A stretch of 64,000 nucleotides of DNA from Martinezella rhizogenes (GTDB lineage: Bacteria > Pseudomonadota > Alphaproteobacteria > Rhizobiales > Rhizobiaceae): the NCBI GenBank assembly GCA_013322215.1, contig JAAMEZ010000036.1:558001-622000 (forward strand), in the 5' to 3' direction. The position numbers and the translations under genes were made by a program. The notes beneath the pieces were generated by a model. That model did not search any database, had not been told where the DNA came from, and saw nothing but the letters and a program-made list of their open reading frames with translations. Of the stretch, positions 338 through 36,481 are shown one piece after another; positions within the stretch are counted from its first letter, which is position 1, and the number at the start of each line of letters is the position of its first letter.

Positions 338-1339
338 ATGGCGCGCAAAAACCTCCTTGAAATCTCGGCGCCGAGCACGGCGCGCACGGATGCGCCGACA
401 GCAAAGGACAATCGTCCGATTGCTGGCTTCCTGCCACAGGCGAGGGGTGCCGGTCCTGTAGGTGGCATTACGAGGACGCTCGGAAACATCACGGAGAAGA
501 TGGAACGCGCCAGCGATCTCGAACGGCAGCTGGCAGAGGGACAAACGGTCGTCGACATCGATCCCGATGTCATTGACGGGTCCTTCGTTACCGATCGCCT
601 CGAAATAGATCCGATTGAGCTTGGCCAGCTGGTTGAGCAGATACGCGAGCACGGCCAGCAGGTCCCGATCCTTGTGCGACCGCATCCGGAGGCCAAGGGG
701 CGCTTTCAGGTCGCCTACGGCCATCGGCGACTGGCGGCCACGAAGGAACTCGGCATTAAAGTGCGCGCGGTCGTGCGTCAGCTCACGGATGACCAGCTGG
801 TCGTCAGTCAGGGCCAGGAAAACAGCGCACGCACCAATCTCTCCTATGTTGAGCGAGCATTGTTCGCATTGCGCCTCGAGCAGCGTGGTTTTGGCCGCGA
901 TGTCATCATGGCTGCGCTTGGCGTCGACAAGGCAGCGCTTTCCAAGATGCTGATCGTCACGAGACAGGTGCCTCTGCCGCTTATCAGCGCGATCGGGCCG
1001 GCTCCCGAAATCGGCCGCAGGCGATGGCTAGAGCTGGGAGAGCGTCTTGAGAGCATTGCTTCCGAGCCGATCACTGCGGAGTTGTCCGCGGACAACTATC
1101 GGAAGATGTCGAGCGATGAGCGCTTCCAGCGTGCACTCATTCTGGCAATGGGCAAGCCCACTTCTGCCAAGAGTGTAGCAGCTCCCTCATCCATGACCGG
1201 AGTTCCAGTAACTTTTAAGCGAACACCCGCGCGCGCCACCTTTGTTTTCGACAGCAAGGCTGCGCCTGGTTTCGACGAGTTCGTGCAGGAGAGACTGCAA
1301 TCTCTCTTCAACGAGTTTCAGCAAGGAAAGGAAACGTAA
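338..1339 (+). CDS. repB: RepB, ParB-like partition protein
   Basis: A 333-residue centromere-binding partition protein of the repABC type. A ParB/sulfiredoxin-like N-terminal domain covers roughly residues 70-165, with the arginine-rich YGHRRLAATKELG box near 127-139. A helix-turn-helix region follows at about 185-210 (DVIMAALGVDKAALSKM). RepB binds parS, works with RepA in segregation and acts as co-repressor of the operon. It starts 4 bp after the repA stop. A parS-like palindrome lies inside the reading frame over codons 248-253. The length is typical of the family. Confidence 0.96.
   Translation: MARKNLLEISAPSTARTDAPTAKDNRPIAGFLPQARGAGPVGGITRTLGNITEKMERASDLERQLAEGQTVVDIDPDVIDGSFVTDRLEIDPIELGQLVEQIREHGQQVPILVRPHPEAKGRFQVAYGHRRLAATKELGIKVRAVVRQLTDDQLVVSQGQENSARTNLSYVERALFALRLEQRGFGRDVIMAALGVDKAALSKMLIVTRQVPLPLISAIGPAPEIGRRRWLELGERLESIASEPITAELSADNYRKMSSDERFQRALILAMGKPTSAKSVAAPSSMTGVPVTFKRTPARATFVFDSKAAPGFDEFVQERLQSLFNEFQQGKET
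1081..1096. promoter_or_regulatory. parS: parS-like partition site inside repB
   Basis: A perfect 16-bp palindrome, GTTGTCCGCGGACAAC, fits the repABC parS consensus GTTNNCNGCNGNNAAC at every fixed position. It lies within repB over codons for SAD and neighbours, so it is coding and probably also the RepB binding site. Parts of the repABC family carry parS between genes or downstream of repC; here it is intragenic. Assignment is by consensus match only. Confidence 0.72.
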
Positions 1340-1494: not shown

Positions 1495-2808
1495 ATGGAA
1501 GCCGAATATGTGACGACGCCTTTTGGGCGGCGGCCGATGACGCTTGCCATGTTGATGGCTCAAAGACGAGCCGAGCATGGGAAGCCCATCAGGTCTGTCG
1601 ACAAATGGAAGATTTATCGCGCGCTCTGTGAAGCCAAGCCTCTTCTCGGGGTGACGGACCGCGCACTTGCAGTTCTCAATGCACTCTTGAGCTTCTATCC
1701 GAAGAACGAGTTATCGGATGACGCCAACCTGATCGTGTTTCCTTCGAACGCGCAATTGTCCTTGCGCGCCCATGGGATGGCCGAGCAGACCATTCGCCGT
1801 CATCTGGCTGCGTTGATCGCTGCCGGGCTTCTTGTGCGCAGAGATAGCCCCAACGGCAAGCGTTATGCTCGTCGGAGCAGGGCAGGGGACCTCAATGAGG
1901 CCTATGGCTTCTCATTGACGCCTCTTCTCTCGCGAGCGGAAGAGATCGAATATCTTGCCGCCCAGGTCGCAGCCGAGCGGCTTCATATCCAGAGCCTGCG
2001 CGAGCGCATCAGCCTCCACAGACGCGATATTGCCAAACTGATCGAAACCGCCATTGCCGAGGCCGTGGAAGGTCCCTGGGAGGCGGTCTATGTGGCTTTC
2101 CGTGCATTGATCGACGGGCTTTCAAGATCCCCGACGGCAATGGAGCTGGAAGTTCTTCTCGATAAGCTAGGCCACCTACATGACCAAATCATCAACCAGT
2201 TGGAAACATACATAAAAACCACGAAATTAAGCGGCAATCCCTATCAAAATGAGCGGCACATACAGAATTCAGACTCCGAATCCTTCATTGAATCTGAAAC
2301 CGGAGCCAAACAGCAAACAGTACCGCTGAACCAATCTGCATTTCCGCGGACAACTCCAACAACCCCCAAAGCCCAAACATCTTCGGGTACTATCCGACCA
2401 ACACCTTCAACATCACATGGCTTTTGCACTGAAACTCGTAAGGAGATTCCAGCGGAACTGAAATCTTTCCCGCTGGATCTCATCCTCCGTGCTTGCCCGG
2501 ACATCACGGCTTATGCACCGGCCGGCACTATCAGCAACTGGCGCGATCTGCTTGCAGCCACGATCATCGCCAAATCAACACTCGATATCAGCCCTGGAGC
2601 CCATCAGGAGGCCTGCAGGGTCATGGGGACAGAAAATGCTGCCACTGTGATCGCCTGCATCCTCCAACGCGCCGCACACATCAATTCTGCCGGTGGTTAT
2701 CTTCGAGATCTGACCCGGCGAACGGAGAAGGGAGAATTTGCGATCGGTCCCATGCTTATGAGCCTTCTGCGGGCAAACATGACCACGACAGCGCGAAAGG
2801 TGGCCTAG
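1495..2808 (+). CDS. repC: RepC replication initiator
   Basis: A 437-residue RepC, the replication initiator specific to alphaproteobacterial repABC replicons. The N-terminal half is a winged-helix DNA-binding region (about residues 40-150, including a QTIRRHLAALIAAGLL recognition-helix-like segment). A helical stretch (about 150-245) and a variable linker lead to a conserved C-terminal domain (about 325-437). Synthesis is expected to be limited by the antisense RNA upstream. The linker DNA is notably AT-rich and is the likely origin. ATG start 155 bp after repB, the spacing expected for a ctRNA-bearing gap. Confidence 0.96.
   Translation: MEAEYVTTPFGRRPMTLAMLMAQRRAEHGKPIRSVDKWKIYRALCEAKPLLGVTDRALAVLNALLSFYPKNELSDDANLIVFPSNAQLSLRAHGMAEQTIRRHLAALIAAGLLVRRDSPNGKRYARRSRAGDLNEAYGFSLTPLLSRAEEIEYLAAQVAAERLHIQSLRERISLHRRDIAKLIETAIAEAVEGPWEAVYVAFRALIDGLSRSPTAMELEVLLDKLGHLHDQIINQLETYIKTTKLSGNPYQNERHIQNSDSESFIESETGAKQQTVPLNQSAFPRTTPTTPKAQTSSGTIRPTPSTSHGFCTETRKEIPAELKSFPLDLILRACPDITAYAPAGTISNWRDLLAATIIAKSTLDISPGAHQEACRVMGTENAATVIACILQRAAHINSAGGYLRDLTRRTEKGEFAIGPMLMSLLRANMTTTARKVA
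2190..2420. other. oriV: Candidate replication origin inside repC
   Basis: Within repC the base composition drops sharply to AT-rich over the region encoding the low-complexity Asn/Thr/Ser/Pro linker (about residues 235-310). In studied repABC plasmids the origin maps to an AT-rich stretch inside repC, so this is the best candidate here. No iteron or DnaA box was confirmed by eye. Confidence 0.5.
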
Positions 2809-26316: not shown

Positions 26317-28644
26317 TCAGAACTGGTTGCCGAAGCCGAAGCGGAAGTTTTCCACCTTGTCGTAGTCCTGCTTGAGGAACGGCACGGCGTAGCTGAGATT
26401 GATTGTGCCGAATGGTGACGCCCAGGTCAGTCCGATGCCGGCCGATGCGCGCAGCGCCGATCCATCGTGCAGGACATCACCATAAAGATTGGCATCATTG
26501 CCATAGAGCGTTCCCGCGTCCAGGAAGACGGAGCTGCGGAAGCCGAGATCCTGCGGCATGCCCGGCGTCGGCATGCTCGTTTCCACCGAGGCGGTGAAGT
26601 ATTTGGTTCCGCCGAGCGGATCGCCGTCGGACGTCCTTGGACCGATGCCCGCATCTTCAAAGCCTCTAATCTCGCTGCCGCCGATCATGAACTGATCGAA
26701 AATGTTCAAGTCCTGACCATTTGTCGAAGTCATGTAGCCGGCACCAAGGGTTATCGAACCGATGATATCCTGTGAGTCCGAAAGTGTGTGGTAGTAGCGC
26801 GCCTTGCCGCTGAGTTTGTAATAGTTCGAGTCGCCGCCAAGACCGGCGACTTCCTGCGTGACCTTGGCGATGAAGCCGTCACGCGGTAGGTTCTGATCGT
26901 CAAGAGTATTGTAGGTGAAGGTCTGGGAAACGCTCGATTGCGTCCAGGGACCGTTGTTGATCAGGTTCTGGTACGGTGCGGAGAGATTGTCCTGCCAGTC
27001 GCTCTCGCCAGTATAGGTAATCTGCTTGTAGGTGTAGCGAAGCGTCGTCGAAAGGTCCTCGGTGATAGGCGCCGTGATCCGCAGCGAGATACCTTCCTCG
27101 CCGTAGTCGTAGTAATCGCTGCTGGTGGTGACGCTCTTGAAAAGGTCGAAGCCGGCGGCGAGGCGTTCGCCAAGGAAATATGGCTCGGTGAAGGAGAGAG
27201 TGTAGGTTTGGCTTCCGCTCGTGCTCGCGCCTGCCGCAACCTTGATATACTGGCCGCGTCCGAGGAAATTCTTCTCCTCCACGGAGGCTTCCAGCAAAGG
27301 ACCACCGTTGACGCCGACAGCGTAGCCCCCGCCGATACCGAAGGAGCCGGTTGGCTGATCTTCGACATCGACGATGATGACGACCCGATCCGGAGCGCTG
27401 CCAGGACGTGTCGAGATCTTCACCGACGTGAAATAGCCGAGCGCATCCAGGCGGCGTTTGGCGCGCGCAATCATCTGCTCATTGAAGGCATCCCCTTCGT
27501 TGAGGTCGAATTCACGCCGAATGACATAGTCCCTCGTTCGTGTGTTGCCGCGAATTTCGATGCGCTCCACATAGGCGCGTTCACCCTGATCGACGATGTA
27601 TTCTATCGAGACGGAATGATCTTCGGGGTTGCGATTGCCGCGCGGCGTTACCTTGGCAAATGGATAGCCGGCTGCCTCTATGCGTTTCGAGATTGCGTCA
27701 ATCGACTTCTGGATATCCTCGGCATTATAGGTATCGCCTTTGCGCGTGATGACGAGGCTTTTCAGGTCGTCGGCATTGATACCCTGCACGGTTGATGTCA
27801 CTGAAATATCGCCATAGCGATATTTCTCGCCCTCATCGACAACGAAGCTGACGTCGTAGCTGTTCGTCGCGCTGTCGAAGGTTGCATTATCGGACACCAG
27901 CCTGAAATCGACAAATCCGTGATCGTAATAGAATTTACGAAGTGCGTCCTCGTCGGCGTCTTTCTTCGTTTCGCTATAAATATCCTTGCGCGTCAGAAAC
28001 GACAGGAAAGTGGATTTCTTTGTGCTGATCACCGCGGCGAGACGACCGCCGCTGAAAGCATGATTTCCGGAGAATGTCAGCTTGCTGATTGTCGTGCGGT
28101 CGCCTTCGTTGATGACGAAAGCGAGATTGACCCTGTTCTTCGCGATGTTGACGACTTGCGGCGTCACTTGGACATTGTTGCGCCCGATCGCGGCATAGGC
28201 ATCCTTGATCGACTTTATGTCGTCTTGAACCTGACTTTCACTGTATGGGCCAGCCGCCTTGGACTTAACCAGCTCGGCCAATTTATCGTCCTTTATCTTC
28301 TTGTTCCCGTTGAATACAACTGCATTGATGAGATTGTTCTCGTGTACGGAGATAACGAGACTATGGCCTTCTACCGATATATGTACATCGGAAAAATAGC
28401 CAGTTGCATAGAGTTGTTTGATCGATTGGTCGATATCCGCATCTGAAAAGCTCTTGCCAGGAGCGATCGTTATATTGTCCTTTACTGCGGTCGGTCCAAC
28501 GCGCTCGGCACCAACCACCCGTATATCACTTACCATAGCTGCCTGCGCAGACAGAGGCGCGGCTATGGCTGTGCTTATGAATGCTAAAATGGCAATTGTC
28601 GAATTTGAACGTTTTAACTTTGACCGCGGTAAATCAGAGTTCAT
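26317..28644 (-). CDS. bamA: BamA/Omp85 outer-membrane assembly factor homologue
   Basis: A 775-residue BamA with a signal peptide ending at LSAQA (about residue 35), five POTRA domains (about 38-425) and a C-terminal 16-strand barrel. The barrel shows the L6 motif IRGF near residue 659 (VRGF in most BamA) and ends in aromatic Phe (FRFGFGNQF), the outer-membrane beta-signal. BamA inserts beta-barrel proteins into the outer membrane. Rhizobia keep a chromosomal bamA among lipid A genes; this copy lies alone on a repABC replicon next to an lptD homologue, so it is probably a second copy. Tandem 10-bp repeats lie upstream. Confidence 0.9.
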   Translation of the reverse strand: MNSDLPRSKLKRSNSTIAILAFISTAIAAPLSAQAAMVSDIRVVGAERVGPTAVKDNITIAPGKSFSDADIDQSIKQLYATGYFSDVHISVEGHSLVISVHENNLINAVVFNGNKKIKDDKLAELVKSKAAGPYSESQVQDDIKSIKDAYAAIGRNNVQVTPQVVNIAKNRVNLAFVINEGDRTTISKLTFSGNHAFSGGRLAAVISTKKSTFLSFLTRKDIYSETKKDADEDALRKFYYDHGFVDFRLVSDNATFDSATNSYDVSFVVDEGEKYRYGDISVTSTVQGINADDLKSLVITRKGDTYNAEDIQKSIDAISKRIEAAGYPFAKVTPRGNRNPEDHSVSIEYIVDQGERAYVERIEIRGNTRTRDYVIRREFDLNEGDAFNEQMIARAKRRLDALGYFTSVKISTRPGSAPDRVVIIVDVEDQPTGSFGIGGGYAVGVNGGPLLEASVEEKNFLGRGQYIKVAAGASTSGSQTYTLSFTEPYFLGERLAAGFDLFKSVTTSSDYYDYGEEGISLRITAPITEDLSTTLRYTYKQITYTGESDWQDNLSAPYQNLINNGPWTQSSVSQTFTYNTLDDQNLPRDGFIAKVTQEVAGLGGDSNYYKLSGKARYYHTLSDSQDIIGSITLGAGYMTSTNGQDLNIFDQFMIGGSEIRGFEDAGIGPRTSDGDPLGGTKYFTASVETSMPTPGMPQDLGFRSSVFLDAGTLYGNDANLYGDVLHDGSALRASAGIGLTWASPFGTINLSYAVPFLKQDYDKVENFRFGFGNQF

Positions 28645-28941
28645 CTACGCTTTTACCTTGCATTTCCAATTGGAGCTGTTCCGCGGGTTTTTCAGAGAAA
28701 TGAATATCCATGCGGTCGGAGAATCTGCCTGTGACGTAGAAAGAGCACTATCACTTCTCCGTGCTCTTCGGTGTTAAGTAATGTTAAGTAATATTTCGAT
28801 TGGGTCTCCGTCTTGCCGATCGCGCGCGGAACCCTGAAGTACATCGGGATCCCGGCATGTCGACCAAAACTGCTTCATCGCAAGGCGGTTCGCGATCTTG
28901 TCTGAAGCGATCCGAAAGCTGCGGATCAAATCTGAAATGAT
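28645..28941. other. bamA-lptD intergenic region
   Basis: The gap between the lptD stop and the bamA start on the minus strand carries the bamA promoter region. The notable element is the pair of tandem repeats at 28771-28790. An inverted pair GAAAGAGCAC/GTGCTCTTC at about 28739-28768 adjoins them. A small open frame within this gap has no coding features. Confidence 0.5.
28771..28790. promoter_or_regulatory. Tandem 10-bp direct repeat upstream of bamA
   Basis: Two exact head-to-tail copies of TGTTAAGTAA sit 127-146 bp before the bamA start. Tandem half-sites repeated once per helical turn are the typical binding pattern of OmpR/PhoB-family regulators, one of which is encoded 3 kb away. A degenerate pair with the same 10-bp phase (GATTAAGTTG, CGTTAATTTA) lies at 31645-31664. 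Binding is inferred. Confidence 0.45.
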
Positions 28942-31302
28942 CTAATTGCCGCCGAGCTTGACTTCCCCCAGCGTGCGGAACGTCAGGTGCAGCATTATGG
29001 ACCAATCGACGCCCGTCGTGCTGGAGGTATCCTTTTTCCAGTCGTAAACTAGGCTGGCAGTCGTGCATTCATCGGAATAGGTTACGCCGAAGTCGTGTTC
29101 GCTGAGATCCTTGGCGCGTAGATCATATCCGAGCGTCGTGTTGACTGACCATTGATCCGAGAGTTTCAATTTCACCTGCGGTTGGAGCTCATCCTCATTG
29201 GTGGGTATGTCGTAATCGGGCTGAGCCTCGATATGCGTATAGGTCAACTGCGTATCGAGAATCGGCGTGACATAACCAATCGTCGTATCGCCGCGCTTTA
29301 GCGCAAAATTGTCGTGGTCGAGCCGATAGGACGTCGAAACTGAAATGCCGTGCGGCATGGTTATGCCGAACATCGTCACATAGTCCGATCGTGCCGTTTC
29401 GAGCCCCGATTCGAGGCCGGCGCCGACCAGGTCCGGCGTTGCAAATGAATTCATTCCCATGAGCTGGTAGGACTGGCCAACGACACTGTCCAGTTTGTAG
29501 CCGCTGTCGAAGCTGCCGGTGTAACGCATGCCGACATTGGCACGCGTTCCCCCTTCCACGCGGTCGAAGCCGGAGAATTTATCCCGGTCGAAGAGGTTCG
29601 TCGCATCGAATACGAAACTTTGAGCATCCTCGTTCGGCAACTGACCGGCAAGCTGCTCGTCGGGTCGGAGATAAATCTGCGCTATGGGTTCGAAGACCTG
29701 CGTGGAGTGCTCCGTGGTCGCCAGGATCGGATATTTGGCCTCTAGCCCGGCCGTCAGCATTTCCCGCGCGGCAGCGCCATTGTCGTCGTAGTTACCGGCA
29801 TAGACATATGAGGGGCTGATGGAGTTCGGCCCATCCATCCCAAGAGCCATCGTATCTCCACGGGCGGCAAGCAGCGGCGTCAACTCCAGCCCCTGAGGCG
29901 TCACGAAGGAGCGCTGCCACTGCATTTCGGTCGTAAGCCGCGCATAATCGCCAGTAAGCCCGAGAAAGCGGTCTGAGTTGTCGGGATTGACGACGACGTC
30001 CGCGGTGCTGCGCGAGACATTCGTGAAATTGCTGGTCAGCGACAGTTCTCCACCGAGAACAGGCTGTGGCGCGATCGCGTGATAATCGATCACCGGATAG
30101 GCGACGGCCTGCTGCTTTTGCAAGGTGCTGCCGGTTGTGGCGTCCTGCTCATTGTAGTAGGCGAACCGCATATCGAAAAAGTTCCGTTTGCCGATGCCGG
30201 TCAAGTAGGCCTGATTGGTATGTGTGGTTTGATTGAGCCCCTCGATATTATAGGTTCGGGCAAAGTCGTTGTCGCTCTGCGCCATGACATCCCAGCCGAA
30301 AGTCCAGCGTGGGTTGATCCTGAAATCGCCTTTGGAAGCTATGAGCGTCCTGAGCTTGGCATTCACATCGGTGGTTCCGGTGTCAAACGCACCCGGGTCG
30401 GCCTGATCGATGAGGGCTGCGCGCAGATCATAGCTGCCGTTTTCAAGCCGCTGGCGAAACTCGCCCTGCAATAGCAAACCCTGATTACTATATCCTGTCG
30501 CGGTAACCGTCGCGTCCATGCTCGGCGAAATCACATAGTAATAGGGGATTGCCGCGCCAAAGCCGAGATTCTGGGAGACGCTGAAGGTTGGAAACAGAAA
30601 GCCCGACTTTCTCTTTACGGTATTGTCGGGCACGGTCATCCAGGGAATATAGGCGATCGGCTGGCCGAAAAGTTCAAGCCTTGCATGCTCCAGTCTTATC
30701 GTATGAGTGATGCCGTTCTGGATAATCCTCTCTGCCTTCACCTGCCACAGCGGAGCGCGGCCCTGTTCCGAGCACGGAGCGCAGGCGGTATAGACGCCTT
30801 TGGTCAGGATAACCTTGGAGCCGCCGACGCGGTCGCCCTTGATTGCCACCATTCTCGTATTGTCGGGCATTTCAACCCGCAGGGCCTCGATAAATCCATT
30901 GGAGAAATCATTGGTCACGTCCATTTTGTCACCGTAGGTACGGTTACCATCAGGGGTGATCAATTCCACATTTCCTGTCGCAGTCATCCTTTTTGTGATC
31001 TGGTTGTAGTCGACCTGATTGGCTACCAATTTATAGCCGCCATAGTGGATTTGAACTGCGCCGCGTGCGGTTATTATCTGCGTATCTTTGTTGTAAATAG
31101 CCTCGTTCGCCTGTAAGAGCAGCTTCGTCCCATCCGGAATCTTAACGTTTGTCGTGGTCGGTAGTGTCGACGTCTGACCTGCCGGTTGCCGCTGAAATTG
31201 CCCTTGCGCAAGTGAATGATCACTGGCTGCACATGTGGCGATGATGGTGAACGACCAAGCCATGGTAGCTCGGTTTGAGGACAACGGAGCTATGCGTCTC
31301 AA
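28942..31302 (-). CDS. lptD: LptD LPS-assembly outer-membrane protein homologue
   Basis: A protein of about 786 residues. An OstA-like beta-jellyroll (about residues 55-170) contains TGNVELITPDGNRTYGDKMDVT. The cysteine pair TACAPCSE follows, then RKSGFLFPTF and a large barrel to the C-terminus with one late cysteine (SDECTTAS, about 40 residues from the end). The cysteines suit the inter-domain disulfides of LptD, which places LPS in the outer leaflet. The start is uncertain: TTG 31302 has GGAG 7 nt upstream and overlaps an upstream stop as TTGA; GTG 31311 and ATG 31263 are alternatives. The usual chromosomal neighbours (surA, pdxA, rsmA) are absent, so it is probably a second copy. Confidence 0.88.
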   Translation of the reverse strand: MRRIAPLSSNRATMAWSFTIIATCAASDHSLAQGQFQRQPAGQTSTLPTTTNVKIPDGTKLLLQANEAIYNKDTQIITARGAVQIHYGGYKLVANQVDYNQITKRMTATGNVELITPDGNRTYGDKMDVTNDFSNGFIEALRVEMPDNTRMVAIKGDRVGGSKVILTKGVYTACAPCSEQGRAPLWQVKAERIIQNGITHTIRLEHARLELFGQPIAYIPWMTVPDNTVKRKSGFLFPTFSVSQNLGFGAAIPYYYVISPSMDATVTATGYSNQGLLLQGEFRQRLENGSYDLRAALIDQADPGAFDTGTTDVNAKLRTLIASKGDFRINPRWTFGWDVMAQSDNDFARTYNIEGLNQTTHTNQAYLTGIGKRNFFDMRFAYYNEQDATTGSTLQKQQAVAYPVIDYHAIAPQPVLGGELSLTSNFTNVSRSTADVVVNPDNSDRFLGLTGDYARLTTEMQWQRSFVTPQGLELTPLLAARGDTMALGMDGPNSISPSYVYAGNYDDNGAAAREMLTAGLEAKYPILATTEHSTQVFEPIAQIYLRPDEQLAGQLPNEDAQSFVFDATNLFDRDKFSGFDRVEGGTRANVGMRYTGSFDSGYKLDSVVGQSYQLMGMNSFATPDLVGAGLESGLETARSDYVTMFGITMPHGISVSTSYRLDHDNFALKRGDTTIGYVTPILDTQLTYTHIEAQPDYDIPTNEDELQPQVKLKLSDQWSVNTTLGYDLRAKDLSEHDFGVTYSDECTTASLVYDWKKDTSSTTGVDWSIMLHLTFRTLGEVKLGGN

Positions 31303-31610
31303 ATGCGGCACTCCGCAAGTAGCGCGAGAAATGCTGGTATCTCTTTGTGTATCTTGTTCCGCCTGCGTGCGATCGCGATTCCTTTAGGAGATATGTTCCT
31401 TCTTGACTGACTACTTGTCATTCCGTGACGAGATAACGGAGAAATACTTCTGATTTCCGCCGTGTTTCGCTCAGTTGATAGCCATTGAACTACCTGAGCC
31501 TTACAATCGAATTCTGCTTGACTATCCGGGCTTGTACCTGCCCGGCCTTCCTGCTGGGATACTGCAACACTATGCGTAGCTGGACGCACGATTTCGGACT
31601 CCATTGCCAT
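31299..31610 (-). CDS. Possible small protein upstream of lptD
   Basis: A 103-codon open frame whose TGA stop overlaps the proposed TTG start of lptD (TTGA), which would allow translational coupling. The predicted product is basic and Ser/Arg-rich in its second half, has no signal peptide and no family that I recognise, and its ATG lacks a good ribosome site. It could equally be untranslated leader. Low confidence. Confidence 0.25.
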   Translation of the reverse strand: MAMESEIVRPATHSVAVSQQEGRAGTSPDSQAEFDCKAQVVQWLSTERNTAEIRSISPLSRHGMTSSQSRRNISPKGIAIARRRNKIHKEIPAFLALLAECRI

Positions 31611-31916
31611 TTGGCAAGGAATAGACGAAGATAGCTACGCTTTGGATTAAGTTGCGTTAATTTATGTTTCTGTATATTTCTGCTTATTTATTTTATGTTT
31701 CTCTATGTAAATTTATGCAATTTCCGAAACAAAGTGACAGTATTGCCAACTGCGTGGACGGTACCTGCCACAAGCTCGACAAAATTAGGTGCAGGCTACC
31801 TAATGTACAATACACCTTGTGCGGGAACAGCCGAGCTGGCTCGAAAGAACATTAAACGCATGCCTTGAGAGCATCGAAATGTTCCCGAATTGATCTGAGC
31901 TGCAGTAAAGGTGCCC
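31611..31916. other. AT-rich promoter region between lptD and the two-component system
   Basis: This gap is markedly AT-rich between about 31640 and 31730 compared with the surroundings, and probably carries divergent promoters. The degenerate tandem repeat at 31645-31664 lies here. A short plus-strand frame starting near 31664 has no coding character. Confidence 0.45.
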
Positions 31917-32657
31917 ATGAATACCATTAGAACTGCAAACAAGGAGCAGAAGCAGTCGATCCTTCTGGTGGAGGACGATAGCGAGATCGCGAAGATACTG
32001 TCGGAAGTTCTGGCCGAAAACGGCTTTAACAGTATGTGGGCCGCCTCCGCCGAGAAGATGGATGCGTATCTGGAAGACAATACGGCCGATCTTGTCATTC
32101 TCGACGTGATGTTGCCCGGCGAGAGCGGATTGAGCATCTGCCGCCGGTTGAGAGCGACGTCATTGGTCCCGATCATCATGCTGACGGCGCGTTCGGAGGA
32201 TGTGGACAGGATCATAGGGCTGGAAATCGGCGCCGACGATTATGTCACCAAACCTTTCAACCATCGAGAGCTTCTTGCGAGAATCCACGCACTCCTGAGA
32301 CGTTCCCATATCAGCAGACCGCCAAACGATCCTTTCCATTCCGCCTTCCGTTTCGAGGGATGGCGCGTCGAGCCGGGGCAGCGGCAGCTGTTCAGCCCGG
32401 AGGGCGCCCGCGTGACGCTGACAAGCACGGAGTTTGACCTTCTTCTGGCGTTCTGTCAGAACTCAAGGCGTATTCTGACGAGGGAGCAGCTTCTGGAGCT
32501 CACGCACAGCGGCATAGCCGGCCCGATCGGCCGCAGCGTTGATGTCCATATCAGTCGAATACGCCAGAAGATCGAACCCGACCTGCGCTCTCCGACCTTC
32601 ATCAAAACCGTTCGCTTGGGAGGCTACGTCTTTACGCCCAGCATAGAGATATTATGA
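31917..32657 (+). CDS. OmpR-family response regulator
   Basis: A 246-residue response regulator. The receiver domain (about 12-125) has the acidic pair VEDDSE, the phospho-acceptor in LVILDVMLPGESG (Asp63), a Thr in IMLTAR and the Lys in DYVTKPFN. The C-terminal winged helix (about 145-245) ends with RSVDVHISRIRQKIEP and TVRLGGYVFTP, as in OmpR/PhoB. ATG 31917 is preferred because AAAGG precedes it by 6 nt; a GTG lies 6 nt earlier. It overlaps the kinase start by ATGA. Placement beside bamA and lptD homologues suggests an envelope-stress target. Confidence 0.93.
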   Translation: MNTIRTANKEQKQSILLVEDDSEIAKILSEVLAENGFNSMWAASAEKMDAYLEDNTADLVILDVMLPGESGLSICRRLRATSLVPIIMLTARSEDVDRIIGLEIGADDYVTKPFNHRELLARIHALLRRSHISRPPNDPFHSAFRFEGWRVEPGQRQLFSPEGARVTLTSTEFDLLLAFCQNSRRILTREQLLELTHSGIAGPIGRSVDVHISRIRQKIEPDLRSPTFIKTVRLGGYVFTPSIEIL

Positions 32658-34036
32658 CGGGGTATCTTCGTTTCATCAATCACAAGTCCATCGTCACGCA
32701 GATGATTGCGGTTGTGCTTGCAGCCGTTGTTCTGGGGACGGTATGCACCTCGGTGGCGTTTCTCTTTCTCTCTTATGGATGGCATAATGAGACCAATCTC
32801 AAGCTTGCGGCGGCCTCGGCGGCCGCGCGCATAGCCACGATCGCCGACGACGCCCGCCAGAGCGCGTCACTCGAGGAGCTGAAAAAGACCATCAAGGCTT
32901 CGCGATGGCTTGAGATGCATATAGAAATCGTTCCGAGTGCCGTGTTTTTCTCCAGCCCCGAATTTACCTCGGCAGAAAAGCGCACCGAGCAGGAAAGCGG
33001 CTTTGCCGACGAACTGCGAAACGAGCTCCTCTCCCATTGGAACCTGTCGTCATCGGATATCTCGATCTCCACGGGCAACTCGGTCGTCGTCAAGATCAAC
33101 AATCAATACGCTTTGATTTTCCAGACGACGCACCGCCCGCCGATGCAGCGGTTCATCTTCATACAGCTTGGCTTCGTCGTTGCGACGGTCATGATCGTGG
33201 TGCTTTTCCTGGCCGTTTACATCATCAAGCGGCTTATGGCACCACTCTCGTCGATAGCAGCGGCGGCTGACGCTCTTGGCCACGTATCGACCCAGGCCCA
33301 GCCGATCAACGATGCAGGGCCGCAGGAAGTCATTCAAGTGGCGAGGGCTCTCAATCATCTTCATGGGCGTCTGCAGTCCCTGATAGAAGAACGGACCCGC
33401 ATGCTGGCTGCAATCAGCCACGATCTTCGCACTCCGCTGACGCGCCTGCGCCTGAAGCTTGAGCGCGGAGTCCAGACCGGGAAACTGGGCAGCATGATCG
33501 ATGAAATCGAAATCATAGACAACATGATCTCGGAAACGCTGCATTATCTGCGCGAGCAGAACGACCGGCGCGCCGGATATGTCATAGACATGCCGAGCCT
33601 CATTCAGACCATCTGTAACGAGTTTGCGGATTTAGGCTTCGATATACGATATCAGGGGCCTGCCAGAATGGCTTACTTCTGCGAGGAATTGGGAATGAGA
33701 CGCGCGCTCTCCAATGTGATCGATAATGCGATCAAGCATGGGACAGAGGTCGTCGTATTGCTTGAAAGCCGAGGTGCAAGCGGCTTTGAAATCCGGATCT
33801 CCGACAACGGCCCCGGTATTCCGAAAGAACACCGCGCCAAGGTGTTGGAGCCTTTCTATGTTGCAGACGATGCGCGATCCCTGATCGGGAGAAGCGGATT
33901 TGGATTGGGTCTTTCCATCGTACGCGATGTCGTATCCCGTCACCGCGGAACCATTTCCTTTGCAGACAACTCGCCTTCGGGGCTCGTCGTGCGGTTGTCC
34001 TTCAATCAATCGCGATCGGCCGAATTTGCAAGCTGA
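32654..34036 (+). CDS. EnvZ-like membrane sensor histidine kinase
   Basis: A 460-residue sensor kinase with two membrane helices (about 15-40 and 168-190) enclosing a 125-residue periplasmic sensor domain, then a HAMP linker. The dimerisation domain carries the phospho-acceptor His256 (AAISHDLRTPLTRLRL). The ATPase domain has the N box (NVIDNAIKHG), G1 (DNGPGIP) and G2 (GFGLGLSIV) motifs. It should phosphorylate the regulator encoded immediately upstream, with which it overlaps by 4 bp. The stimulus is unknown; a periplasmic envelope signal is likely from the topology. Confidence 0.93.
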   Translation: MTGYLRFINHKSIVTQMIAVVLAAVVLGTVCTSVAFLFLSYGWHNETNLKLAAASAAARIATIADDARQSASLEELKKTIKASRWLEMHIEIVPSAVFFSSPEFTSAEKRTEQESGFADELRNELLSHWNLSSSDISISTGNSVVVKINNQYALIFQTTHRPPMQRFIFIQLGFVVATVMIVVLFLAVYIIKRLMAPLSSIAAAADALGHVSTQAQPINDAGPQEVIQVARALNHLHGRLQSLIEERTRMLAAISHDLRTPLTRLRLKLERGVQTGKLGSMIDEIEIIDNMISETLHYLREQNDRRAGYVIDMPSLIQTICNEFADLGFDIRYQGPARMAYFCEELGMRRALSNVIDNAIKHGTEVVVLLESRGASGFEIRISDNGPGIPKEHRAKVLEPFYVADDARSLIGRSGFGLGLSIVRDVVSRHRGTISFADNSPSGLVVRLSFNQSRSAEFAS

Positions 34037-34276: not shown

Positions 34277-36481
34277 ATGATTTCGACGTATCTCGGCTAC
34301 GTGTCCGCGACAAAGGACATGGCATCAACGCTTGCGCGCATCGCCAAGCAGGCGACGGTCAAGAGCGACCAGCAATATTACGATGCGCATATCGGCAAGG
34401 TTAAGAATGTCGATGAGTTTCTGAGCGATTACAAGCTGTACAGCTATGCGATGAAGGCCTATGGCCTTGAGGACATGACCTATGCCAAGGCCTTCATGAA
34501 AAAGGTCCTGGCCAGCGATCTTAGCGATACGAGCAGCTTTGCAAACAAACTGACGGACAGCCGCTATCGGCAATTCGCCGCTGCTTTCAATTTTGGCGCT
34601 ACCTCAAAAAATCAATCGGCTCAGAGCGATTCCCAGAAGAGCGATACGATCGGGCTTTATGAGCAATCCTTCGCCAATGAAACGGCCTTGGCCAAGAAGG
34701 AAAGCAAGTTCTACGATAGCTGGATCGACAAAGTGTCGAATGTCGACGATATCGTCAACAGCAGCAGGATGACGGACTATATCCTGCGGGCACACGGTTT
34801 AAACCCGGACAATATCTCGAAGGCGTTCCTGAAGTCGGTTCTGACCAGCGATGTCAACGATCCGAACAGCTTCGTCAACACGGCGAGCAATTTCTCGACG
34901 GCATCGGCGCAGCCGACATACAAGCTGATCGCGTCGCAGTTCAGCTTCAATGCCGACGGAACGCTTTCCGGTGCGACTGCGCAGACGACGGAGCAGAAGG
35001 AGGCCATGATCTCGCGATATGATAGCATGGTTCCGAGCCTCTTGACCTCGGCTGCGGCCACCAGCAATGACGACTACTATCGTCAGGCGATCACGAAAGT
35101 TCAATCGATCAGCGATATTACCGGCGATAACAGGCTGTTTTCCTATATAAAGACCGCATTCAATCTCAATCCCAAGCTCACTCCGGTCCAATTCAACCTC
35201 GCCTTCACGAACTCCGATTATGCCGCCGTGACCGGAATGGCGGACATGGTTTCGCACTTCCAGTTTGCGTCCGACGGAACGCTGCCGACCGGTCAGCCGG
35301 CGCAGACACAACAGGCTATCGACGATATCTCGACCAAATATATGAACGAGGCCAAAGGCGCGAAACAGGCCCTGTTCGACGACGCCGAGAAACACTACAA
35401 GACCGCGGTCGGCGAGATAAAGACGATTGCGGACTTCTTTGCCGCCAACGACACGAAGAACAAGAATCTTCCAACCATAGAGGACATGGCGCTTCGCGCC
35501 TTTGGGATTGACAAGAACGAGGTCTCCAGGGATCAGTTGCGCAAGATCCTGGAGAGCGACCCCTATGACAGCAAGAGCTATGTTAATTCGTTGAAAGACG
35601 ACAGATTCGTCGAGCTTGCCAAAGCATTCAATTTCGACAGCGAGGGCAATCTGCGGGCGCCGGTCGTGCCCCTGTCGCAGACCTCGATCAACAGCCTGAT
35701 TTCCGCCTATTCGAAGTCGAAGACCTTCGGGTTGACCGGCGAGATGCGGGACAAGGCAGTTAAGGATGCGAAGGACGCGGCGACCGAATTCAGCAAGTCG
35801 ATCGCCAAGATCAAGACCGTCGACGAACTCCTGGCCGACAAGAAGCTGACGGAGTTTATCCTCGTTGCGAACAATATCGATCCCAAGACGGTCGACAAGA
35901 ATACCTTGAAGAAGGCCTTCACCGCAGACCCCGAGGATGCCAAGGGTTTTCTGAATACACAGGCTGGCCAGCAATTCAAGGCGATGGTGAACGCCTTCAA
36001 TTTCGACGCCAAGGGAAATCTGACCACAGCCAAGATCGAGCCGGGACAGAACAAGGGTGCGCGTCTCGCCACCAACGATCTCTATCTTCACCAGACGCTC
36101 GAAACGCAGCAGGGGGGCTCCAATGAGGGCGTTCGCCTCGCGCTCTACTTTCAGCGCAAGGCGCCGCAGGTCAATTCCGTCTACGATATCATGTCGGATC
36201 CGGCGCTCTACAATGTGATCAAGACGACCTATTCGCTGCCCGCATCCATGTCGAACATGGACGTGACCCGCCAGGCGGCGATGCTCGAAAAGTTGTTCCC
36301 GATCAAAGATTTGCATGATGCCGGCAAGGTGAACAACCTGCTCAAGCGCTTCTCGGCCGTCTATGATGCGGCAAATGGCGGGAGCACGACTTCCCCAGCA
36401 TCCGCCATTCTCACGCGAGGCTCCAAGACGGGCATGAGCGCGGACCTCATGCTCTCGATAGCCCAACTCAGATCGCGATAA
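34277..36481 (+). CDS. Multi-repeat DUF1217 protein
   Basis: A 734-residue protein built from about six copies of a helical repeat of roughly 110-140 residues. Each copy has a pattern like YYxxxIxKVKxVDEFLxDxKLxxYxxKAYGL followed by KAFxKxVLxSDxxDxxSFxN, which I recognise as DUF1217. Single or double DUF1217 proteins often sit in rhizobial flagellar clusters; none of those genes is here. No signal peptide or membrane helix is visible, and Lys and Asp are abundant. GGGGG precedes the ATG by 7 nt. It follows the kinase by 240 bp. Function unknown. Confidence 0.8.
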   Translation: MISTYLGYVSATKDMASTLARIAKQATVKSDQQYYDAHIGKVKNVDEFLSDYKLYSYAMKAYGLEDMTYAKAFMKKVLASDLSDTSSFANKLTDSRYRQFAAAFNFGATSKNQSAQSDSQKSDTIGLYEQSFANETALAKKESKFYDSWIDKVSNVDDIVNSSRMTDYILRAHGLNPDNISKAFLKSVLTSDVNDPNSFVNTASNFSTASAQPTYKLIASQFSFNADGTLSGATAQTTEQKEAMISRYDSMVPSLLTSAAATSNDDYYRQAITKVQSISDITGDNRLFSYIKTAFNLNPKLTPVQFNLAFTNSDYAAVTGMADMVSHFQFASDGTLPTGQPAQTQQAIDDISTKYMNEAKGAKQALFDDAEKHYKTAVGEIKTIADFFAANDTKNKNLPTIEDMALRAFGIDKNEVSRDQLRKILESDPYDSKSYVNSLKDDRFVELAKAFNFDSEGNLRAPVVPLSQTSINSLISAYSKSKTFGLTGEMRDKAVKDAKDAATEFSKSIAKIKTVDELLADKKLTEFILVANNIDPKTVDKNTLKKAFTADPEDAKGFLNTQAGQQFKAMVNAFNFDAKGNLTTAKIEPGQNKGARLATNDLYLHQTLETQQGGSNEGVRLALYFQRKAPQVNSVYDIMSDPALYNVIKTTYSLPASMSNMDVTRQAAMLEKLFPIKDLHDAGKVNNLLKRFSAVYDAANGGSTTSPASAILTRGSKTGMSADLMLSIAQLRSR

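Follow-up and report, generated by a model that had tools for sequence, protein, structure and literature searches.

A second BamA and LptD pair with an adjoining two-component system on a secondary replicon of Martinezella rhizogenes

Gene content of the locus

The DNA analyzed here, referred to as the window, is a stretch of 64,000 nucleotides from Martinezella rhizogenes (assembly GCA_013322215.1, contig JAAMEZ010000036.1, positions 558,001–622,000 of the forward strand), whose genome (G000) comprises 8.16 Mb in 59 contigs. The window carries a module of four genes, encoding an accessory BamA (bamA2), an accessory LptD (lptD2), an OmpR-type response regulator and an EnvZ-type membrane histidine kinase. 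bamA2 and lptD2 lie side by side on the same strand, and the regulator-kinase pair is divergent from both.

The bamA2 gene (26317–28644, minus strand) encodes 775 amino acids (aa) with the features expected of BamA, namely five POTRA stretches (PF07244) and an Omp85 barrel (PF01103, 2.8e-87), and has an IRGF motif at 659. The lptD2 gene (28942–31311, minus strand) encodes 789 aa with an LptD domain (PF04453, 1e-69) and cysteines at residues 27, 177, 180 and 749. Its structural model matches LptD structures with a Z of 20.8 and a root-mean-square deviation of 3.6 over 507 residues. The regulator (31911–32657, plus strand; 248 aa) has the receiver and winged-helix domains of the OmpR type, with Asp65 as the candidate residue that we take to be the phospho-acceptor. 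The adjacent kinase (32654–34036, plus strand; 460 aa) has HAMP, HisKA and HATPase domains and two hydrophobic segments by hydropathy, and its His256 is the likely phospho-acceptor. Solved structures match the kinase part only. A preliminary description of the locus had reported full-length BamA and LptD with a divergent OmpR/EnvZ-type pair, and the Pfam scans agree with it.

Second copies, their conservation and their evolution

Two LptD matches and three Omp85 matches were found in the M. rhizogenes genome. Two of the latter resemble BamA, to which the remaining 651-aa frame is 24% identical. Contig C27 holds the canonical copies in two places separated by about 440 kb, one with the order lptG-lptD-surA and the other with bamA-lpxD. 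The canonical neighbors (lpxD; lptG and surA) flank these C27 copies, and none of them lies beside the window copies. Because the canonical neighborhoods are occupied by the C27 copies, the window bamA and lptD are additional, as had been proposed; the ordinary copies, whose absence would have spoken against that proposal, exist for both genes. The global identity between second and first copies is 69.9% for BamA and 64.9% for LptD. One-step duplication was ruled out as the source of the pair, since with canonical genes about 440 kb apart no single local duplication can have joined the second copies. In another genome of the same species (7 contigs), a 1.82-Mb contig carries the four-gene set and a separate one of 4.06 Mb carries the canonical copies.

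Among 148 Rhizobium genomes, M. rhizogenes included, an LptD2 orthologue (at least 80% identity) was retrieved from six, M. rhizogenes being one of them. All five further carriers contain bamA2, lptD2, the regulator and the kinase, so that the complete set is present in 6/6. A 1560-contig assembly with two LptD matches (G103) was left out of this count. The module occurs in three contexts: three relatives (G062, G026 and G054) match the window neighborhood, and G141 and G046 are flanked otherwise. One locus comparison took in 80 of 139 loci, and 3 of these 80 contain the module. Of 297 Rhizobiaceae genomes, 294 have an LptD match, and two strong full-length matches occur in M. rhizogenes only. 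Nineteen other Rhizobiaceae genomes have two weaker LptD matches each (best E-values 1e-94 to 1e-118), which look like one gene split in two; one of the 19 (G166) has a single LptD on re-examination. Across 396 sampled Pseudomonadota genomes, 389 list one LptD, five none, and two list two, namely M. rhizogenes and a Bradyrhizobium-like genome, which is 1 of the 395 others. All 10 genomes with a second LptD that were tested for BamA have two or more strong BamA-type matches in addition to weaker Omp85 ones, and all 29 tested Rhizobiaceae genomes with a single LptD have one BamA match at an E-value of 1e-150 or better. The four-gene set is a conserved unit, and a rare one. A comparison across Rhizobiaceae, as the preliminary description had called for, therefore confirms conservation, the set being kept together in all Rhizobium carriers, but finds it in the R. 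tropici group only, and the family-wide framing was too broad.

Two possible exceptions to the pairing were observed. The plasmid p_3 LptD of S. meliloti RCAM1115 (L088:7995–10317) is spread over two different frames among insertion sequence elements on a conjugative plasmid, and neither annotation nor matching places a bamA within 8 kb of it; it is probably a broken copy. In the Bradyrhizobium-like genome G473 (L139), LptD and BamA are both doubled and unlinked, and the second LptD lies near a gene that by eye resembles a site-specific recombinase. Several of the LptD and BamA matches in the plasmid collection look like chromosomes filed as plasmids.

LptD and BamA trees were built from 41 rows each (35 canonical and 6 accessory), as had been suggested. 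LptD2 and BamA2 each form a single, fully supported clade (100/100), with identical internal order in both trees. The accessory clade falls within the same 24-row group in both, beside 15 R. tropici-type canonical copies, its exact branch point being fixed by neither tree, and its stems are long (0.53 and 0.43). BamA2 and LptD2 have co-diverged. The ratio of nonsynonymous to synonymous substitution rates (dN/dS) is 0.05–0.10 for accessory lptD and 0.04–0.065 for accessory bamA (one pair saturated), and 0.03–0.095 and 0.008–0.10 for the canonical lptD and bamA. Both second copies are intact and under strong purifying selection. The synonymous divergence of accessory versus canonical lptD is 0.23 vs 0.24 between M. 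rhizogenes and G026, 1.07 vs 0.54 for G141, and 3.1 vs 0.84 for G046; for bamA it is 0.31 vs 0.17 with G026. The larger accessory values may reflect transfer or an origin predating the host split, and codon bias and saturation may play a part as well.

LptD2 departs from canonical LptD most at residues 680–779 (28975–29274, minus strand). Beyond residue 60, its identity to canonical tropici-type copies is 0.66, and that between canonical tropici-type and leguminosarum-type LptD is 0.67. Over residues 701–750, LptD2 shares 0.35 with the canonical tropici-type, against 0.59 between the canonical types themselves, and the accessory copies agree with one another at 0.89. No 100-residue segment with the observed excess arose in 5000 block permutations. 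This part of LptD2 has thus been remodeled and then conserved. The structural model places residues 680–779, with modest confidence (predicted local distance difference test score, pLDDT, 59), as the last barrel strands, which presumably lie beside the lateral gate. Known LptD structures include, by their titles, complexes with a phage protein inserted into the lateral gate and LptDE with bound bicyclic peptides. A recombinant origin of the barrel end was also considered. Among the outside matches listed, the best are canonical Rhizobium copies (44.8–48.3%), so no donor was seen among them.

The carrying replicon is secondary and of repABC type, as first described. RepB (338–1339, plus strand) and RepC (1495–2808, plus strand) were identified by Pfam in the window outside the module, and the canonical loci are on another contig. 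The window genes around the module are chiefly for sugar uptake and metabolism. Directly after the kinase gene, a 734-aa protein with four DUF1217 stretches (34277–36481, Pfam) is encoded, which also adjoins the kinase in G062, G026 and G054 and lies about 6 kb off in G141.

Shared boxes, efflux genes and a separate pairing

An alignment over five genomes showed that each intergenic region of the module has a conserved block, and the two blocks contain similar tandem repeats of 10 bp. Together with pattern scans, the alignment defines two candidate regulator sites, one upstream of bamA2 (28774–28797, plus strand) and the other between lptD2 and the regulator gene (31647–31670, plus strand). 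When up to 3 mismatches are allowed, a 24-base pattern matches just two places in the whole M. rhizogenes genome, both in the module, and its reversed control matches 5. A shorter exact pattern recovers both module sites in 6/6 carriers and no such site in 4/4 non-carriers; as the patterns derive from the module sites, matches at these sites are built in, whereas absence elsewhere is a result. In a pattern-free test, the similarity of the intergenic regions exceeds that of shuffles in G046 (0/1000 as good) and G141 (6/1000). Since the box is common to both intergenic regions in all carriers, the module regulator probably controls both bamA2 and lptD2, and we infer that it binds these boxes. 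A third exact site of the short pattern occurs in four carriers (G000, G062, G026 and G054) and two non-carriers (G093 and G060). In M. rhizogenes it lies on contig C38 (L243:1501–1517) between another OmpR-type regulator gene and an efflux adaptor gene, and for this reason it probably belongs to that adjacent regulator, which shares 82/225 residues with the module regulator.

Efflux genes adjoin such loci in several genomes. In G141 and G046, the module is next to an operon that encodes an adaptor and two RND pumps and has a regulator-kinase pair of its own; the operon joins the bamA2 end in one relative and the kinase end in the second (L094/L245 and L095/L246). We take this operon to resemble MdtABC. 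No box was found at it within 2 mismatches in G141 or G046, and one at 3 mismatches in G141. On a Rahnella sikkimica plasmid (L090), an accessory bamA lies beside TolC-family and RND efflux genes; the BamA matches listed from the plasmid collection include 12 Rahnella and 10 Pantoea records.

A separate bamA-lptD pairing was found in a Caballeronia-like genus, where 10/58 genomes have an accessory LptD. These include G717 (680 contigs), in which no canonical LptD was seen. In all 10, an accessory BamA lies directly upstream of the accessory LptD and is itself preceded by a small open reading frame; the gene order is opposite to that in Rhizobium. One of them, G723, and plasmid p3 of C. grimmiae from the plasmid collection also carry a regulator, a DUF2866 gene, a kinase and a second regulator; on C. 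zhejiangensis p2, genes of this kind accompany a bamA that has no lptD next to it. In G723 the pair borders on RND and outer-membrane efflux genes, and one genome of the SBC type has MFS, MATE and FtsX-type genes near the pair. Taken together, the efflux neighborhoods may point to stress or defense. The small open reading frame that precedes accessory bamA has no Pfam match at the three loci examined (L086:7495–7893, L087:7382–7840 and L089:7596–7985). The accessory Caballeronia LptDs form one clade among the canonical LptDs of their own genus (Shimodaira-Hasegawa-like approximate likelihood ratio test 98), and the accessory BamA shares 29% identity with BamA2; the Rhizobium and Caballeronia pairs are therefore separate in origin. 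The module box was not found in two Caballeronia loci, L086 and L089 (432/500 and 495/500 shuffles as good), and is doubtful in a third, L096 (16/500).

Interpretation and comparison with known systems

The module may be a dedicated reserve, switched on by a signal, of the two essential outer-membrane assembly barrels that are exposed at the surface; it would let the cell bypass attack. We give this reading an even chance. The signal perceived by the membrane kinase would be damage to the envelope or a compound that acts on the outer membrane. Once phosphorylated, the regulator would bind the tandem-repeat boxes and switch on lptD2 and bamA2, and probably its own operon as well. BamA2 would fold barrels, LptD2 included, with the chromosomal partner proteins, and LptD2 would export lipopolysaccharide (LPS) together with the chromosomal Lpt bridge, allowing survival while BamA1 or LptD1 is blocked. 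The attacker might be a peptide antibiotic, a bacteriocin, a phage or a host peptide. A wider form of this idea is tentative, and we would rather doubt it than accept it: a convergent, self-regulated bypass module in which bacteria of two classes independently combined diverged LptD and diverged BamA copies, some with their own switch, so that the two surface machines targeted by peptides, bacteriocins and phages could be swapped together on a signal, the Rhizobium LptD having its barrel end rebuilt beside the lateral gate.

Several results weigh against the inducible bypass. The sensor domain of the kinase is poorly modeled from six sequences (pLDDT 61), and the 64 kb of the window have no match to the efflux pumps that neighbor the module in relatives. 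The reversed control of the short pattern gives 0–2 sites per genome, and the pattern-free test is not significant in M. rhizogenes (320/1000 shuffles as good), G026 (358) or G054 (332). BamA2 has no specially diverged region (311/5000 block permutations), and neither of the two Caballeronia LptD types shows localized remodeling (172/3000 and 1094/3000). The other 9 of the 10 Caballeronia-like genomes, of the SBC type, lack an adjacent two-component system of the C. grimmiae type.

The preliminary description had favored a signal-responsive alternative assembly line that inserts a different set of barrels or LPS form, possibly within a host or under envelope stress. Its signal-responsive part fits, because the copies are additional, the set is kept and a box is shared. 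A different surface, made of particular barrels or an altered LPS and possibly built in a plant host, seems unlikely to us: the dedicated switch with its shared box, the remodeled and then conserved last strands of LptD2 and the substrate specialization of BamA paralogues proposed in the available text of Heinz and Lithgow are what such a line would lead one to expect, but the conserved unit holds no LPS or barrel substrate genes, carriers number only 6 of 148 Rhizobium genomes, and the BamA2 barrel is not specially diverged. The evidence leans instead to the inducible bypass, which is favored by the precedent of BamK and BaeSR in Klebsiella pneumoniae, described below, and by the MdtABC-like units beside the module in two relatives. 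Retention of the four genes over three contexts, the single clades, purifying selection, the shared box, the joint occurrence of second BamA and second LptD, the separate Caballeronia pairing and the remodeled LptD2 strands also speak for it.

Even less probable is a pure dosage effect, in which the extra copies add assembly capacity during envelope stress and provide no escape from attack. Neither stems of 0.53 and 0.43 and a difference of 30–35% from the canonical copies nor remodeled LptD2 strands would be needed for mere dosage, although strong sequence constraint on the second copies agrees with it and extra BAM capacity is among the possibilities named in the available text of the BamK report (PMC13059784). 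We regard it as very improbable that two duplicates simply met on a plastic replicon beside an unrelated two-component system. The replicon is indeed secondary and the neighbors are mostly for sugar uptake and metabolism, but the two-component pair is retained over three contexts, the box is shared, the copies are under purifying selection, and bamA and lptD were paired separately in another class.

Both BamA and LptD are targets of antibiotics, and a genome normally holds a single lptD (389 of the 396 sampled Pseudomonadota genomes). If the inducible bypass holds, a switch-controlled spare pair would show how soil bacteria sidestep attack on both targets at once and would offer a genetic handle on environmental agents aimed at BamA and LptD. 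Two BamA and two LptD proteins per cell also provide a route to the residues that decide inhibitor, phage and LPS specificity.

In the titles and abstract openings searched, mostly outside the subscription literature, no paired second bamA and lptD was found in print, no bacterial work using the names lptD1 or lptD2, and no such pair in work on Rhizobium, LptD, the outer membrane and symbiosis; the available parts of PMC9088363 and PMC10809759 mention neither bamA nor lptD. The Caballeronia plasmid pairs (C. grimmiae p3 and Caballeronia sp. SBC2) resemble the module in having adjacent extra BamA and LptD on secondary replicons, and the C. grimmiae type is also similar in the OmpR-family regulators and the kinase next to bamA-lptD. 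They differ in the bamA-lptD order, the small open reading frame ahead of it and their Burkholderiaceae-type proteins, and the C. grimmiae type differs further in having DUF2866 and two regulators beside the pair. Second BamAs of Pseudomonas were described in 2014 (PMC4104836), and their role was still called 'undisclosed' in 2018 (PMC6240691). Like BamA2, they lie away from the canonical locus; unlike it, they are highly similar recent duplicates, with no LptD in the available 2014 text and no paired switch mentioned in the parts available.

The closest parallel is BamK of K. pneumoniae, as set out in the available text of its report (PMC13059784). BamK is a BamA paralogue with 63% identity that is silent under the tested conditions; mutations in BaeS switch on bamK, and BamK then replaces BamA and resists a BamA-binding macrocycle. 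The authors weigh roles against natural inhibitors, antibodies and phage, and regard the paralogue as undescribed outside its clade. BamA2 branches inside the Rhizobium BamA tree, which was built without a Klebsiella sequence; having arisen within Rhizobium BamA, it is therefore not a BamK orthologue. The two systems differ in that the module adds an LptD, which the available part of that text does not mention, and encodes its switch beside the paralogues. They are alike in having a BamA paralogue (63% there and 70% here) beside a normal BamA, an associated OmpR-family two-component system, here by adjacency and a shared box that make control of the paralogue probable, and a connection to efflux, through the Mdt pump in the BaeSR regulon (PMC13059784) and the MdtABC-like operon adjoining the module in two relatives. 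By analogy, the window system may work like BamK and BaeSR.

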